Assembly (NCBI GenBank): GCA_017983635.1
Contig: JAGOBA010000005.1
Coordinates: 1-64,000, forward strand
Source of the DNA: Alphaproteobacteria bacterium
GTDB taxonomy: Bacteria; Pseudomonadota; Alphaproteobacteria; Micropepsales; Micropepsaceae
Length of the DNA: 64,000 nt
Direction: 5' to 3'
The notes below the pieces were generated by a model. The model was not told where the DNA came from. It did not search any database and worked only from the letters and a program-made list of their open reading frames with translations. Within the stretch, counting starts at the first letter, position 1; the number at the start of each line of letters is the position of its first letter. Made by a program: the position numbers and the translations under genes. Below are positions 29,539 through 49,889 of the stretch, piece by piece.

Positions 29539-29616
29539 TCCAATCAGGCCTGGAAGCTGATCCGCACGAGCGCTAACGTGCGCGCCAAGAACACCACTAA
29601 ACCCTTGGAGAACATC

Positions 29617-30534
29617 ATGGGAATGCTATCGGGAAAAGTCGTCTTGGTGACCGGCGGTGCGAACGGCATCGGCAAGGAGTGCGCGCTCCTGGCCGCGAAG
29701 GAAGGCGCGAAAGTCGTGGTCAACGACCTCGGCGGCTCGACCTCGGGCGGCGACGAAGGCTCCGCCGGCCCCGCCGAAATGGTCGCGCGCGAAATCAAGG
29801 CCGCAGGCGGCCAAGCCGTCTCGAACTCCGACTCGGTAACAAATCGAACCGCCGTCAAGCGCATGATCGAGCAGGCAAAGGACACGTTCGGCGGCCTACA
29901 CGCTGTCATCAACCCCGCAGGCATTCTCCGAGACACGATGTTCCACAAGATGACCGATCAGGACTGGGACCTGGTGATCGACGTGCATCTGAACGGCGCC
30001 TACAACGTCTGCCGCGCGACGATCGAACATTTCCGCGAGCAGCAAGACGGCGCCTACGTGCTGTTCACATCAACCAGCGGCATCATCGGAAACATCGGCC
30101 AAGCGAACTACGCGGCCGCCAAGATGGGCGTCGCCGGCCTCTCGCGCATCATCGCCATGGAAGGCGTGCAGAAGAACGTGCGCTCCAACATCATCGCCCC
30201 GTTCGCGTGGTCGCGTATGATCGCGACCATTCCGATCAAGGACGAAGCCTCCGCCAAGCGCGTGGAGCGCATGAAGAACCACATGCGCGCCGATCAGGTT
30301 GCGCAACTGGCCGTGGCCCTCTGCGCCCCGCAGTCAAAAGACGTCACCGGCCAAATCTTCACCGCAAGAGGCAACGAAATCTTCCTGATGTCCCAATCCC
30401 GCCCCTTGCGCGGCATGGCCAAAATGGAAGGCTGGACACCCGAGACCATCTGCAACCACGCCTTCCCGGCCATGAAAACGATGATGTACGACAGCGGCGC
30501 AACAACCTCCGTCTTCGGCTGGGACCCGGTGTAG
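29617..30534 (+). CDS. SDR-family oxidoreductase, hydroxyacyl-CoA dehydrogenase (HSD17B4)-like
   Basis: A 305-aa short-chain dehydrogenase with the nucleotide-binding motif VTGGANGIGKE, VVVNDLGGS and the catalytic STSGIIGNIGQANYAAAKMG (Ser, Tyr-x-x-x-Lys). The VVNDLGG pattern and the extended C-terminus are seen in dehydrogenase modules of peroxisomal-type multifunctional beta-oxidation enzymes, so a 3-hydroxyacyl-CoA substrate is possible but not shown. I chose the ATG at 29617, preceded by GGAG at six bases, over a GTG at 29578. Confidence 0.85.
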   Translation: MGMLSGKVVLVTGGANGIGKECALLAAKEGAKVVVNDLGGSTSGGDEGSAGPAEMVAREIKAAGGQAVSNSDSVTNRTAVKRMIEQAKDTFGGLHAVINPAGILRDTMFHKMTDQDWDLVIDVHLNGAYNVCRATIEHFREQQDGAYVLFTSTSGIIGNIGQANYAAAKMGVAGLSRIIAMEGVQKNVRSNIIAPFAWSRMIATIPIKDEASAKRVERMKNHMRADQVAQLAVALCAPQSKDVTGQIFTARGNEIFLMSQSRPLRGMAKMEGWTPETICNHAFPAMKTMMYDSGATTSVFGWDPV

Positions 30535-34530: not shown

Positions 34531-35016
34531 TCACCACGCAGCCCCCGGTGCGGCGTCGCCAGCAAGCTCCGCCAGCCGCCGCCGCGTGCCGCTGGTGGTG
34601 CCTTTCGGCAATTCGTTCACCGGAAAGAACGCAGCTTCCGCGATCTCAAGCGGACGCTTCTTGCCCTCCACGCGGCGCCACTCTCCGGCCTCAAAGAGAA
34701 TGACGTGGTCAGAGCGCTTCTGCACCAAGCTCAAATAGACGCCGACAAGACGAGGCGGCGTCACCGCTTCAATGAGCGCTTCTTCGCGCAACTCCCGCAC
34801 GGCCGCATCGGCCGCTGTCTCGCGCCGGTCGACAGCGCCGCCCGGAAAGTGCCAACCGGGTGTGTAGGTATGGCGGACCAGCAGAACCGTGTCCGCCTTC
34901 CGCACGATGATCCGTACACCAATCGTTAAGGGCCAGCGCCCGGTTCGCGCCAGTTTCGCGACGCGCTGATAGGCTTGGATGGATGAGCCGACGATGCGGC
35001 CAAATCGATGGGTCAT
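34531..35016 (-). CDS. Nudix hydrolase
   Basis: A 161-aa protein with the Nudix box at residues about 59-82 (GGAVDRRETAADAAVRELREEALI); the final Gly of the consensus is replaced by Ala, a tolerated change. The N-terminus includes a basic region before the fold (PLTIGVRIIVRKADTVLLVRHTY). Substrate unknown. Its stop begins in the base after the amidase stop; the upstream 102 bp separate it from the divergent flagellin-like gene. Confidence 0.85.
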   Translation of the reverse strand: MTHRFGRIVGSSIQAYQRVAKLARTGRWPLTIGVRIIVRKADTVLLVRHTYTPGWHFPGGAVDRRETAADAAVRELREEALIEAVTPPRLVGVYLSLVQKRSDHVILFEAGEWRRVEGKKRPLEIAEAAFFPVNELPKGTTSGTRRRLAELAGDAAPGAAW

Positions 35017-35118
35017 GGCAACCGAGCTTTAAGCGCAATCTTGGGCGCCGGGTAAAGCGTTCCCTAACCCCTGCGCGCCTAAGCTCCGCGCAACAAAGCC
35101 TCAAAGGTGGGGGAAGTC

Positions 35119-35784
35119 ATGTCCGTCGAACAAAAGCGCGTGGACGCGCAGAGCCTATTCGCTTACGCGCGCCGCGTGCTCTCCGGAAAGGAAGCGCCGG
35201 TCGAAGCGCCCGTCGAGCCCGTCGACATCCGTTCCGGCATCGACCGCGCACTGCGCCAGGCACGCCGCGGCGCATTCATGTCGGGCACCTTGGCCGAAAC
35301 CGCCGCCCGCGCGATCTCAACCGTTGAAGGCACCCTGGTCGCCATCGACACGATCGACACCTATCTCTCCGAAGCGCTGGAACTGACCGCCGATGCCTTG
35401 ACCGATGCCGACGCCACGAAGCGTGCGATGATCGCCGACCGCTACGAAGAACTTCGCTCGCGGATCGACACCGTCGCCGCCGGCGCTACCTTCGAAGGCG
35501 TGAACCTGATCGACGCCGCCCGCGGCGCGATTGAAGTGACGCTGCCAGACGGCGGTCAACCGCGCCACGCTATCGGACACATCACGCTCGTCGCCGGTGA
35601 ACGCGGCCTGTCGCTGAAAGCACCGTCCGAACTCTTCGCATCGAACGATGAGATCGAAGCCGCTCGCATGTCGTTGTTCGCCGCGCGCCAGCGCCTCGAC
35701 CGTGCGGCGGAGACGTTCCTGAACCAAGCAAGCATCCTCGCCCCGCATCTGGGCGTGACGCCGCAGCTCGGCGAAGTCGCGTAG
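35119..35784 (+). CDS. Flagellin-like helical protein
   Basis: A 221-aa, mostly helical protein. Residues about 35-135 follow the flagellin N-terminal pattern, with the ending SRIDTVAAGATFEGVNLIDAA matching the flagellin LRxxIDxIAxxTxFNGxNLL motif. A short central part (about 135-165) replaces the variable domain, and the last 50 residues (NDEIEAARMSLFAARQRLDRAAETFLNQASIL) resemble the C-terminal coiled-coil helix. No signal peptide is seen. GGTGGGGGAAGTC precedes the ATG at 35119. It is remote from the flagellar cluster. It may be a minor flagellin or an FlgL-like secreted protein; only family resemblance is claimed. Confidence 0.7.
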   Translation: MSVEQKRVDAQSLFAYARRVLSGKEAPVEAPVEPVDIRSGIDRALRQARRGAFMSGTLAETAARAISTVEGTLVAIDTIDTYLSEALELTADALTDADATKRAMIADRYEELRSRIDTVAAGATFEGVNLIDAARGAIEVTLPDGGQPRHAIGHITLVAGERGLSLKAPSELFASNDEIEAARMSLFAARQRLDRAAETFLNQASILAPHLGVTPQLGEVA

Positions 35785-35788
35785 AGCC

Positions 35789-36451
35789 TCAGTGATGATG
35801 GGCATGCGCACCGTGCGCGTGCCCATGACGGTCGGGATCGACCACCGCCTCACCGCGCAATTCGGCCAACGCACGCGCGATCGACTGAAACGACGCGCTC
35901 AACGCCAGCGCCGCCATCGCCGCCGCCACCGCGACATCCGGCCAAAGCGTTCCCGTCCCGAACACGCCCAGCGCCGCAACCATCACCATCACGTTTCCGA
36001 TCGCGTCATTGCGCGTGCAAAGCCACACTGACCGCATGTTCGCGTCACCGTCGCGGTATTGATAGAGCAACACCGCCACGCCCACGTTCGCAAGCAACGC
36101 GAGAAAGCCGATCGCCCCCATCGTCCCCGCATGCGGCGTGGCGCCGGTGAGCACGTTCATGGCGGCCGAAGCGATAACCCAAATGCCAAACAGCCCCATG
36201 CTCGCCCCCTTCACCAACGCCGCCCGTGCCCGCCACGCGAGCGCCATCGAGGCCACCGAGAGACTCAAGGCGTAGTTCGCCGCATCGCCAAAGAAGTCGA
36301 GCGCATCCGCCTGCAGCGAGGCCGATCCCGCCGCAACTCCCGCCACAACTTCAACAAAGAACATCGCCGCATTGACGAAAAGCGCGATCCAGAGCACCCG
36401 GCGATACGCCAGCGACGCACTGGGCGGCGGTGCGGGGCAGCAATGATCCAT
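35789..36451 (-). CDS. Cation diffusion facilitator-type transporter, short form
   Basis: A 220-aa membrane protein with six predicted helices. Metal-site residues are in helix 2 (LQADALDFFGDAANY, DxxxD) and helix 5 (TRNDAIGN). The N-terminus MDHCCP and the C-terminal histidine-rich tail (DRHGHAHGAHAHHH) suggest metal capture. The cytoplasmic C-terminal domain of classical CDF proteins is absent. The ATG at 36451 follows the MerR-controlled promoter, and the gene is divergent from the merR-type gene. Likely exports Zn, Cd, Co or Pb from the cytoplasm. Confidence 0.88.
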   Translation of the reverse strand: MDHCCPAPPPSASLAYRRVLWIALFVNAAMFFVEVVAGVAAGSASLQADALDFFGDAANYALSLSVASMALAWRARAALVKGASMGLFGIWVIASAAMNVLTGATPHAGTMGAIGFLALLANVGVAVLLYQYRDGDANMRSVWLCTRNDAIGNVMVMVAALGVFGTGTLWPDVAVAAAMAALALSASFQSIARALAELRGEAVVDPDRHGHAHGAHAHHH

Positions 36452-36476
36452 CGGCTGATTCCTTCTTCCCGCCCTG

Positions 36477-36507
36477 AATCTACATGCTACAGTGGCTGTA
36501 GCTTCAA
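36477..36507 (-). promoter_or_regulatory. MerR-type operator within the CDF gene promoter
   Basis: Read leftward: -35 TTGAAG (36507-36502), a 19-bp spacer whose first 15 bases are the dyad CTACAGCCACTGTAG, then CATG and -10 TAGATT (36482-36477). An over-long 19-bp spacer with a dyad directly after the -35 is the hallmark of MerR-family activated promoters (compare PbrR and ZntR promoters), where the regulator realigns the two boxes on metal binding. The dyad also lies 16 bp before the merR-type ATG and could serve autoregulation. Confidence 0.85.
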
Positions 36508-36517
36508 GGGTCAAAGA

Positions 36518-36955
36518 ATGGCGCAAGACCTGACCATCGGCGCGCTCGCCAAGAGGGCGGCGACCAAAGTCCAAACAATCCGATTTTACGAGCAGGAAGG
36601 CCTCATGCCCGCCCCCGCACGCACCGAGGGCGGTCAGCGGCGCTATGCCAAGGTCCACGCCGACCGGCTCGCCTTTATCCGGCACGCGCGCGAACTAGGC
36701 TTCCCACTCGACGCGATCCGCGAGCTACTGCACCTCGTCGACGAGCCGGATCAATCCTGCGCCCGCGTCGACCGCGTGGCGAGCGACGTGCTGGCCGACG
36801 TCGAAGCCAAGATCGCGCGCCTCGAAAGCCTCCGCGGCGAGCTCCAACGCATGGTCCGCCAATGCCGCCATGGCCGCGTCGCCGAATGCCGCGTGATCAA
36901 AGTCCTCGCCGACCACTCCCACAGCCACTGCCTCTCCAGCGACCACGGACATTGA
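36518..36955 (+). CDS. MerR-family metal-responsive regulator (ZntR/CadR/PbrR-like)
   Basis: A 145-aa MerR protein: winged HTH LTIGALAKRAATKVQTIRFYEQEGL at the start, the wing GGQRRYAK, a dimerisation helix (DVLADVEAKIARLESLRGEL) and metal-site cysteines at the SCARVD position before the helix and in QCRHGRVAECRVIKVL, plus a His/Cys tail (HSHSHCLSSDHGH). This arrangement matches Zn/Cd/Pb sensors. It should bind the dyad upstream and activate the divergent CDF gene. The methyltransferase 12 bp downstream may be co-transcribed. Confidence 0.92.
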   Translation: MAQDLTIGALAKRAATKVQTIRFYEQEGLMPAPARTEGGQRRYAKVHADRLAFIRHARELGFPLDAIRELLHLVDEPDQSCARVDRVASDVLADVEAKIARLESLRGELQRMVRQCRHGRVAECRVIKVLADHSHSHCLSSDHGH

Positions 36956-38456: not shown

Positions 38457-39323
38457 ATGTTTCAAATCGGCGGCATCATCTTCGTCTTTGTGACTGTGTT
38501 CGGCGGCTATGTTCTGGCCGGCGGCAAGTTCGACGTGATTTTGCACGCGCTTCCCTACGAAGGCACCCAGATCTTGGGCGCGGCGATCGGCGCGCTCTTG
38601 ATCGCCTCATCCGTCCCCGCGCTCAAAGCCGTCGGCGGCTCGTTCGGCAAGATCATGGGCGGGTCGAAGTGGAAGCAGAAGGACTACACCGACCTCCTGA
38701 CGTTGCTCTTCGTGCTGACCAAAACGATGAAGTCGAAGGGCATGATCGCGCTCGAGCAGCATATCGAGAAGCCGGAAGAGTCCACGATCTTCAAAAACTA
38801 CCCGCGCATCATCCACGACCACTTCGCTATCGACTTCATCTGCGACACAATCCGCATGATGACGATGAGCTTGGAAGACCCGCATCAGGTCGAAACCGCG
38901 ATGGAAAAGCAGCTCGAGAAGCACCATCACGAAGCGCTGAGCGCAGCGAACTCTTGGCAGAGCATGGCCGACGGCATGCCTGCCCTCGGCATCGTCGCCG
39001 CCGTCTTGGGCGTTATCAAAACCATGGGCTCGATCACCGAGCCGCCGGAAATTCTGGGCGAAATGATCGGCGGCGCGCTTGTCGGTACGTTCTTCGGGGT
39101 GTTCGTCGCGTACGGCTTCTTCGCACCATTCGCGAGCCGGCTCAAAGCGACGGCGGAAGAAGAGTCGCAGTTCTATCACGTGATCCGCGACGTCCTGGTG
39201 GCGCATCTGCACGGCAACGCCGCGCAGGTCTCGGTCGAAATCGGCCGCGGCAGCGTGCCCTCACACTTCCAGCCGAGCTTCGCGACACTTGAAGAGGCGC
39301 TAAACGCCGCGCCGCAGGCCTAG
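38457..39323 (+). CDS. motA: Flagellar motor stator protein MotA
   Basis: Proton-channel subunit of the flagellar stator. The 288-aa protein has four hydrophobic helices; the first starts IGGIIFVFVTVFGGYVLAGG, a charged cytoplasmic loop follows, and the third and fourth surround the conserved Pro in GMPALGIVAAVLGVIKTMGSI. motB is not in the window, and this locus is 9.6 kb from the flagellar cluster, so stator genes are dispersed. The upstream 167 bp contain a TTAA-rich region but no complete CtrA site. Confidence 0.95.
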   Translation: MFQIGGIIFVFVTVFGGYVLAGGKFDVILHALPYEGTQILGAAIGALLIASSVPALKAVGGSFGKIMGGSKWKQKDYTDLLTLLFVLTKTMKSKGMIALEQHIEKPEESTIFKNYPRIIHDHFAIDFICDTIRMMTMSLEDPHQVETAMEKQLEKHHHEALSAANSWQSMADGMPALGIVAAVLGVIKTMGSITEPPEILGEMIGGALVGTFFGVFVAYGFFAPFASRLKATAEEESQFYHVIRDVLVAHLHGNAAQVSVEIGRGSVPSHFQPSFATLEEALNAAPQA

Positions 39324-48959: not shown

Positions 48960-49889
48960 TTAGCGCATGAAATCGAGCAGCGACATCTGGCTGATCTGCG
49001 CGATCATCCGCCCCGCCGCTTGCGCTGCGACCTGGTCCTGATTAAGCCGCGCCACCGCTTCCGACAGGTCCACGTCTTCGATGTCGCCGATGAACTTGGT
49101 GAAATAAGCCGACATGCTCTCATGCCGGTCGCGCGCGGCGGTGACCTGCGCATGCCGTGTGCCATTGATCGCGGCATAGGTGTTCACATCCGCCTGCACG
49201 GCAGGCATCGACGCGTGCTCGGCAATCAGGAACGTGGTTTGCGCCGCCGTGGACGTGAACCCGAACGGACCGTTCACGCTGGCATCGAACGTGCCGATGT
49301 CCTTGAATGTCTGCATCAGGCCAAGTCCGATATCGCTGGCCAGCATTCCGGTCTCGATCACTTCGTTCTCGTCGATCCGCTGCCTTTGCTTGACCGCCGT
49401 GTTGTCGAACGCATCGAACACCGTCGGCACGCCCACGAGCGACGCCAGATCCGGCGTGTTCACCGGCGGCTGATCCGTGCGCGAGCCGCCATAGACATAC
49501 TTGCCATCGACCCGCGCATTCAGAATGCTCACCGTTTCGTTGTAGAGGTTTTTGACCTCCTCCATCATCGCCGGCGCATGGCCCGTCGAGATCGCATCGC
49601 CGATCGCCGCGCGTAGCCGCCCGGCAATATCGCTCAGCTGCTGCAAATGCAGATCCTGAATATCGAGCTTGTTCAGCACTTCCTTCGTCGTCGCCGAATA
49701 GGACTCGATCGCCGCCGACTTCAGCTTCGCCGAAGCCAAGACGCCCGCCTTGTCTTTCACGTCGGCGAACTGATCGCCGACCTTACCGGTCGAAATCTGC
49801 TGCTGCGCGGTCAGCATGCGCGTTTGAATGCGCGAATACTCGTTGACCAAACCCTGGCCGAACGTCCACGTGCCTACGCGATCAAGCAT
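48960..49889 (-). CDS. flgL: Flagellar hook-associated protein 3 (hook-filament junction)
   Basis: Joins the hook to the filament together with FlgK. The 309-aa protein starts with the flagellin-like helical region [32 protein letters not shown] and has a C-terminal coiled coil ending [20 protein letters not shown]; the [15 protein letters not shown] stretch marks FlgL (compare GxYxFaGs). It lies 14 bp after flgK in the same leftward operon. The ATG at 49889 follows GAGG. Confidence 0.93.

Follow-up and report, generated by a model that had tools for sequence, protein, structure and literature searches.

Flagellin is usually seen as the protein of the flagellar filament, useless without the export machine. 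Its D0 ends build the filament core, and without them a flagellin D1 unit is not expected to form a filament. The gene considered here lies at positions 35119–35784 of the window, that is, of the whole stretch of 64,000 nucleotides that was analysed, and FLP is the name used for the conserved alphaproteobacterial family to which it belongs. Among the known systems, the Caulobacter flagellins FljK, FljL, and FljM (PDB 6xl0, 8uxk, and 8uxn) share the D1 fold with FLP residues 55–221 (Z 16–18). Unlike these flagellins, FLP is devoid of both D0 segments, does not adjoin FlaF/FlbT, and persists in genomes where the searches gave no flagellar markers. FljJ, another flagellin homologue of Caulobacter, has a regulatory role according to an excerpt of PMC7591256, which makes it similar to FLP if the latter is read as a regulator; in the same excerpt, however, FljJ is exported and becomes part of the filament close to the hook, and FLP is without D0. 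The protein of PDB entries 2zbi and 3k8v, a cell-surface flagellin by title, has the flagellin fold in common with FLP (Z 18) but is longer, with 265–323 residues in the solved chains.

Finally, Cle proteins, which are c-di-GMP-binding CheY-like motor regulators, appear to resemble, in their receiver domain and arginine-rich motif, the products of genes adjoining FLP in families f9 and f121 and motA in genus g6 (labels f1, f4, f9, etc., denote families and g1, g2, etc., genera, the window's own being f1 and g1). This likeness is a feature of the neighbour proteins and not of FLP, and the second repeat of the neighbours departs from the published motif. In the open PMC literature, the range of the search (subscription papers lay outside it), no description of a D0-less flagellin homologue of the FLP kind was found. 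The accessory protein described in PMC11580411, which was consulted on surface-sensing genes, is a FliN homologue unrelated to FLP.

The features of the window to which the text refers are as follows.

29578–30534, plus strand: SDR gene (Pfam adh_short), conserved in the gene block of FLP and present in 18 of the 21 loci compared
34531–35016, minus strand: Nudix hydrolase gene (Pfam NUDIX, E 4e-18), divergent from FLP
35051–35070, no strand assigned: conserved 20-bp block GGTAAAGCGTTCCCTAACCC, from an alignment of 11 upstream regions
35119–35784, plus strand: FLP, D1-only flagellin homologue of 221 aa; residues 55–221 correspond to the D1 fold, residues 1–54 are not flagellin-like
35789–36685, minus strand: cation-efflux gene flanking FLP on the side opposite to the Nudix gene
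38457–39323, plus strand: motA, stator gene (Pfam MotA_N, E 2.1e-27), 2.7 kb downstream of FLP

The 221-aa reading frame of the preliminary description is indeed present, between a Nudix gene and a cation-efflux gene, with an ATG at 35119 and a stop codon at 35782–35784. Pfam Flagellin_N matches FLP below the curated cut-off (E 3e-4, 21.2 bits against 26.6) and over profile positions 58–136 only, and two NCBIfam flagellin subfamilies match it far below theirs. A profile built from 16 relatives places Caulobacter flagellins first among PDB sequences (E 7e-8 for FljL). The profile of 32 family members, compared with a flagellin-type set of eight (seven flagellins and FlgL), aligns FLP 54–219 with flagellin 59–224 of 274 at a probability of 99.1 and E 2e-18.

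The first structure model, based on 16 sequences (pLDDT 68.6), was too weak for detail, and the AlphaFold2 model from the 32-member alignment (mean pLDDT 82) was used instead. Its best-predicted parts are three long helices, 58–95, 99–122, and 176–211, with a weaker stretch at 141–150. All 24 Foldseek matches of E up to 0.001 are flagellins, and VIA-align superimposes FLP residues 55–221 on residues 61–229 of Caulobacter FljL (Z 18.3). The preliminary description had chosen in advance the pairing of the terminal helices as the point on which its flagellin proposal turned; in the model, the N- and C-terminal helices of FLP are paired as in flagellin D1. Its statement that both helical ends of flagellin are kept holds for the D1 parts and fails for D0 at either end, the alignments spanning flagellin from about 59–62 to about 224–231. 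Both the profile and the structure alignments begin beyond the N-terminal D0, in whose place FLP has some 54 residues that are not flagellin-like, and they end before the C-terminal D0 of the 270–274-residue flagellins. Nor is there room for an N-terminal D0 in the open frame, which comprises 233 codons, and the next gene starts 5 bases past the FLP stop. FLP is a D1-only flagellin homologue, since the profile matches and the predicted fold all correspond to flagellin D1.

No signal peptide is apparent by eye. Many members of the family open with a short hydrophobic and basic stretch; as an N-terminal membrane anchor it was rejected, the hydrophobic moment exceeding that of same-residue shuffles (p < 0.05) in only 5 of 32 members. 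A pattern search revealed no sigma-54-like site in the gap between the Nudix gene and FLP, in agreement with the preliminary description, and over the window the pattern occurs at the chance rate (27 found, 26.3 expected). Scans for sigma-70 promoters and terminators around the FLP gene likewise gave nothing above chance.

The distribution of FLP was followed in a survey of 96 f1 genomes searched with FLP. Each of the 11 g1 genomes gave a strong match (one of them truncated at the end of a contig), and strong matches were obtained in four other f1 genera, g3 (1/1), g4 (1/2), g5 (5/5, one with an internal stop), and g7 (1/1); g6 and g2 gave only weak matches of the kind that true flagellins give. 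The in-frame stop in the g5 copy (L023:1492–2094, G014:C32) reflects either a decayed gene or a sequence error. In a class-wide sample, 24 of 385 genomes, the window's own among them, match FLP at E up to 1e-9. Twenty of the other 23 loci were fetched (G194, G418, and G176 were left out and are unclassified); 15 encode a short FLP protein, and 5 encode true flagellins with adjoining FlaF and/or FlbT. FLP is thereby recorded outside f1 in families f4, f9, f91, f116, and f121. A plasmid protein search with one f9 member returned no match.

The FLP proteins of the window's genus are 65–82% identical, and each of the 45 pairs formed by ten copies has a dN much lower than its dS, so FLP is more than a chance reading frame. 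When 32 FLP proteins were placed in a tree with seven flagellins and FlgL, all seven flagellins grouped in a single supported clade (100/99). The tree does not establish that the family arose once: the branch of FlgL is very long, and members from f116 fall on the flagellin side with moderate support.

The fate of FLP where flagellar genes are missing is read with the reservation that most compared genomes are draft assemblies and that absences are read from profile searches of these drafts. FlhA was not found in two genomes of the window's genus, G094 (99% complete) and G087 (94%); at the loci examined, motA is missing in both from between its usual neighbours, as is the flagellar cluster beyond the tRNA methyltransferase gene. 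Taken together, this suggests that the flagellum has been lost within the window's genus. Gene order is otherwise conserved around the missing motA and flagellar cluster (G087:C230, L184; G094:C2, L057 and L183). A missing FlhA alone is no proof of flagellar loss, since G091 (86% complete), where FlhA was not found, keeps motA. The family profile detects only FLP in G087 and G094; flagellin-like genes also match it in 7 of the 11 genomes of the genus.

FLP is intact in both genomes, with dN 0.055, dS 0.74, and a ratio of 0.074 by the simple NG86 method, a measurement of selection after flagellar loss that concerns this pair only, and the two genomes may share one loss event. By the same method, the ratio is 0.108 for FLP in G088/G093, both of which have FlhA, and 0.171 for the Nudix gene in G087/G094. 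FLP is under purifying selection in G087/G094. For the f116 FLP pair dS is saturated, and the f4 pairs come close to this. Further, none of MotA_N, FlhA, and Flagellin_N was found in four other FLP-carrying genomes, G098 and G233 of f4 (97% and 91% complete) and G313 and G401 of f116 (87% and 83%). In G463, MotA and FlhA were not found, and this genome (77% complete) is too incomplete to count. A role as a filament subunit is unlikely because FLP persists in genomes that yielded no flagellar markers.

The commonest neighbours of FLP are the Nudix and SDR genes, the former being present in 17 of the 21 compared loci and, as a rule, transcribed divergently from FLP. In the window, the divergent gap between the Nudix gene and FLP is 102 bp, and the block around GGTAAAGCGTTCCCTAACCC is common to most of the 11 aligned FLP upstream regions. 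It is possible, judging by its position and conservation, that this block is a site regulating both genes. The 20-bp block is kept across the genus, including the two genomes without flagellar genes. It has one copy in the genome at up to 3 mismatches, and no regulon can be read from it because there is no second copy within that limit.

On the other side of FLP lie genes of motility. The preliminary description put FLP 13 kb from the flagellar operons, which is correct for flgL (48960–49889); it missed motA. In three of the five loci of genus g5, motA comes directly after FLP (gaps of 98, 134, and 141 nt), and the FLP–motA gap is near 0.9 kb in the remaining two. In f9 and f121 loci, genes for a CheY-like receiver and an Hpt-like protein come after FLP, their order varying, in one locus behind a methyltransferase gene; in G403 the Hpt-like reading frame was detected by profile alone. 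These Hpt-like proteins match the profile of g6 Hpt-like proteins (E 7e-9 to 3e-18), and Pfam gave no Hpt call for the three that were scanned.

Genus g6 has no FLP. A CheY-like receiver is encoded upstream of motA in 8 of its 11 examined motA loci, and in 5 of the 11 an Hpt-like protein comes between this receiver and motA, with the Nudix gene on the other side of the CheY-like/Hpt genes from motA; Pfam confirmed one Hpt and one receiver at these loci. In most of the g6 genomes examined and in one g2 genome, the place directly upstream of motA is taken by a CheY-like receiver with a Cle-type arginine-rich tail, often together with an Hpt-like protein (L091–L096, L098–L100). Several reading frames upstream of motA in g6 and g2 are CheY-like receivers and Hpt-like proteins, and an FLP homologue overlooked at this place was sought with the family profile among reading frames of at least 80 aa and not found.

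The arginine-rich motif is the c-di-GMP-binding element of the Caulobacter Cle proteins in the excerpt of PMC5677366. The neighbours were compared with the Cle type by a receiver domain plus a tandem [YF]xGP[DE][RK]R motif. Pfam finds the receiver domain in all three neighbour receivers scanned. The first repeat is strict in 8 of the 9 receivers upstream of motA and, near FLP, in 3 of 7, or 6 of 7 with N allowed for D/E; in the second repeat, W, F, or Y usually replaces D/E. The CheY-like/Hpt pair does not adjoin FLP in loci of the window's genus, f4, f91, or f116, and Hpt was found in none of the 10 tested genomes of g1, g3, g4, g5, and g7. Since FLP is also kept where neither this pair nor motA adjoins it, the neighbours do not fix its function; moreover, the Nudix gene, among the commonest of them, is no motility gene. 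Nonetheless, the CheY-like/Hpt/motA surroundings in several lineages, as read from gene order and protein families, point to a module controlling motility or surface behaviour.

The distance between FLP and flhA, worked out by hand, is 25–75 kb in all 12 genomes with both genes on one contig (G000, G088, G095, G012, G011, G013, G103, G236, G403, G318, G215, and G210), which fits an origin of FLP beside the flagellar cluster. As for the co-occurrence of FLP with FlaF and FlbT, proposed earlier as a check, in the window's genome both sit with two true flagellins on another contig, away from FLP. Beside flbT, flaF, and two flagellin genes there is also a gene for a TPR-like repeat protein (L054:12724–14427, G000:C32), which by eye is like the Caulobacter flagellin glycosyltransferase FlmG.

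Several functions may be weighed against these data. As a minor flagellar subunit, in the filament (one of the three guesses of the preliminary description) or at a junction, FLP would owe its D1 fold and its recurrent distance from flhA to a place in the organelle; however, D0 is absent at both ends, the gene is under purifying selection in G087 and G094, and it is kept in four genomes without any of the three flagellar markers, so that this role is disfavoured to the point of being very improbable. Secretion or display on the cell surface, as for the cell-surface flagellins of solved structures, would agree with the match to 2zbi, titled “bacterial cell-surface flagellin” (Z 18.3), but ordinary filament flagellins score the same, the FLP N-terminus is not that of flagellin and shows no evident signal peptide, and flagellar export is no available route in genomes without FlhA. 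This makes a surface protein quite improbable, and the secreted helical rod suggested earlier found nothing in its favour beyond the fold. FLP might also be a regulatory flagellin like FljJ and either act with FlbT to control the translation of flagellin or keep the secretion chaperone FlaF occupied. Caulobacter does have a regulatory flagellin acting with FlbT (excerpts of PMC7591256 and PMC9812332), and FlbT, FlaF, and two flagellins are present in the window's genome. Yet FljJ is assembled into the filament, at least in the excerpt of PMC7591256, and FLP has no D0; moreover, FLP is kept where flagellin, FlhA, and MotA were not found, and genus g6 has flagellins and no FLP. We consider this function unlikely.

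A task unrelated to motility, housekeeping or nucleotide-related, in which FLP would act with the divergent Nudix hydrolase from a shared promoter, is doubtful. It draws on the frequency of the Nudix neighbour, on the conserved block in the shared gap, and on the retention of FLP in genomes where flagellar markers were not found. Against it, in g6, a genus without FLP, the Nudix gene is still a neighbour of motA, f91 loci have FLP without a Nudix neighbour, and divergent neighbours are often unrelated in function. Of the three guesses of the preliminary description, a regulator with a flagellin fold fares best, since the gene neighbours point there.

It can be held with high confidence that FLP is a D1-only flagellin homologue and not a filament part, and it is probably a reused flagellin fold with another job inside the cell. 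The full explanation, in which a flagellin domain that does not polymerise has been reused as an adaptor inside the cell, within a module of motility and signalling, is put forward tentatively, at slightly less than even confidence. FLP would then be a cytoplasmic flagellin descendant, unable to polymerise, that has kept the D1 helical unit and parted with both D0 segments. It would work as a protein-binding adaptor or regulator instead of a filament subunit; the predicted fold points to such an adaptor. Its likely setting would be a module for the control of motility and surface behaviour consisting of a Cle-type CheY-like c-di-GMP regulator, an Hpt phosphotransfer protein, and motA, and FLP would probably bind whatever flagellin D1, or a member of the module, binds. 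In some lineages FLP appears to have outlived the flagellum and would therefore also need a flagellum-independent role.

The chances are evenly balanced that a widespread alphaproteobacterial D1-only family acts inside the cell, was once wired to a c-di-GMP/phosphorelay motor-control module, and is selected for after the flagellum is lost. If this is true, a D1-only family surviving flagellar loss would mean that the flagellin fold is reusable as an intracellular module, and FLP would be a handle on the wiring of stator genes, Cle-type c-di-GMP regulators, and Hpt proteins in alphaproteobacteria outside Caulobacter. It is also a warning that proteins called “flagellin” in genomes lacking flagellar genes may be real and serve a different function.
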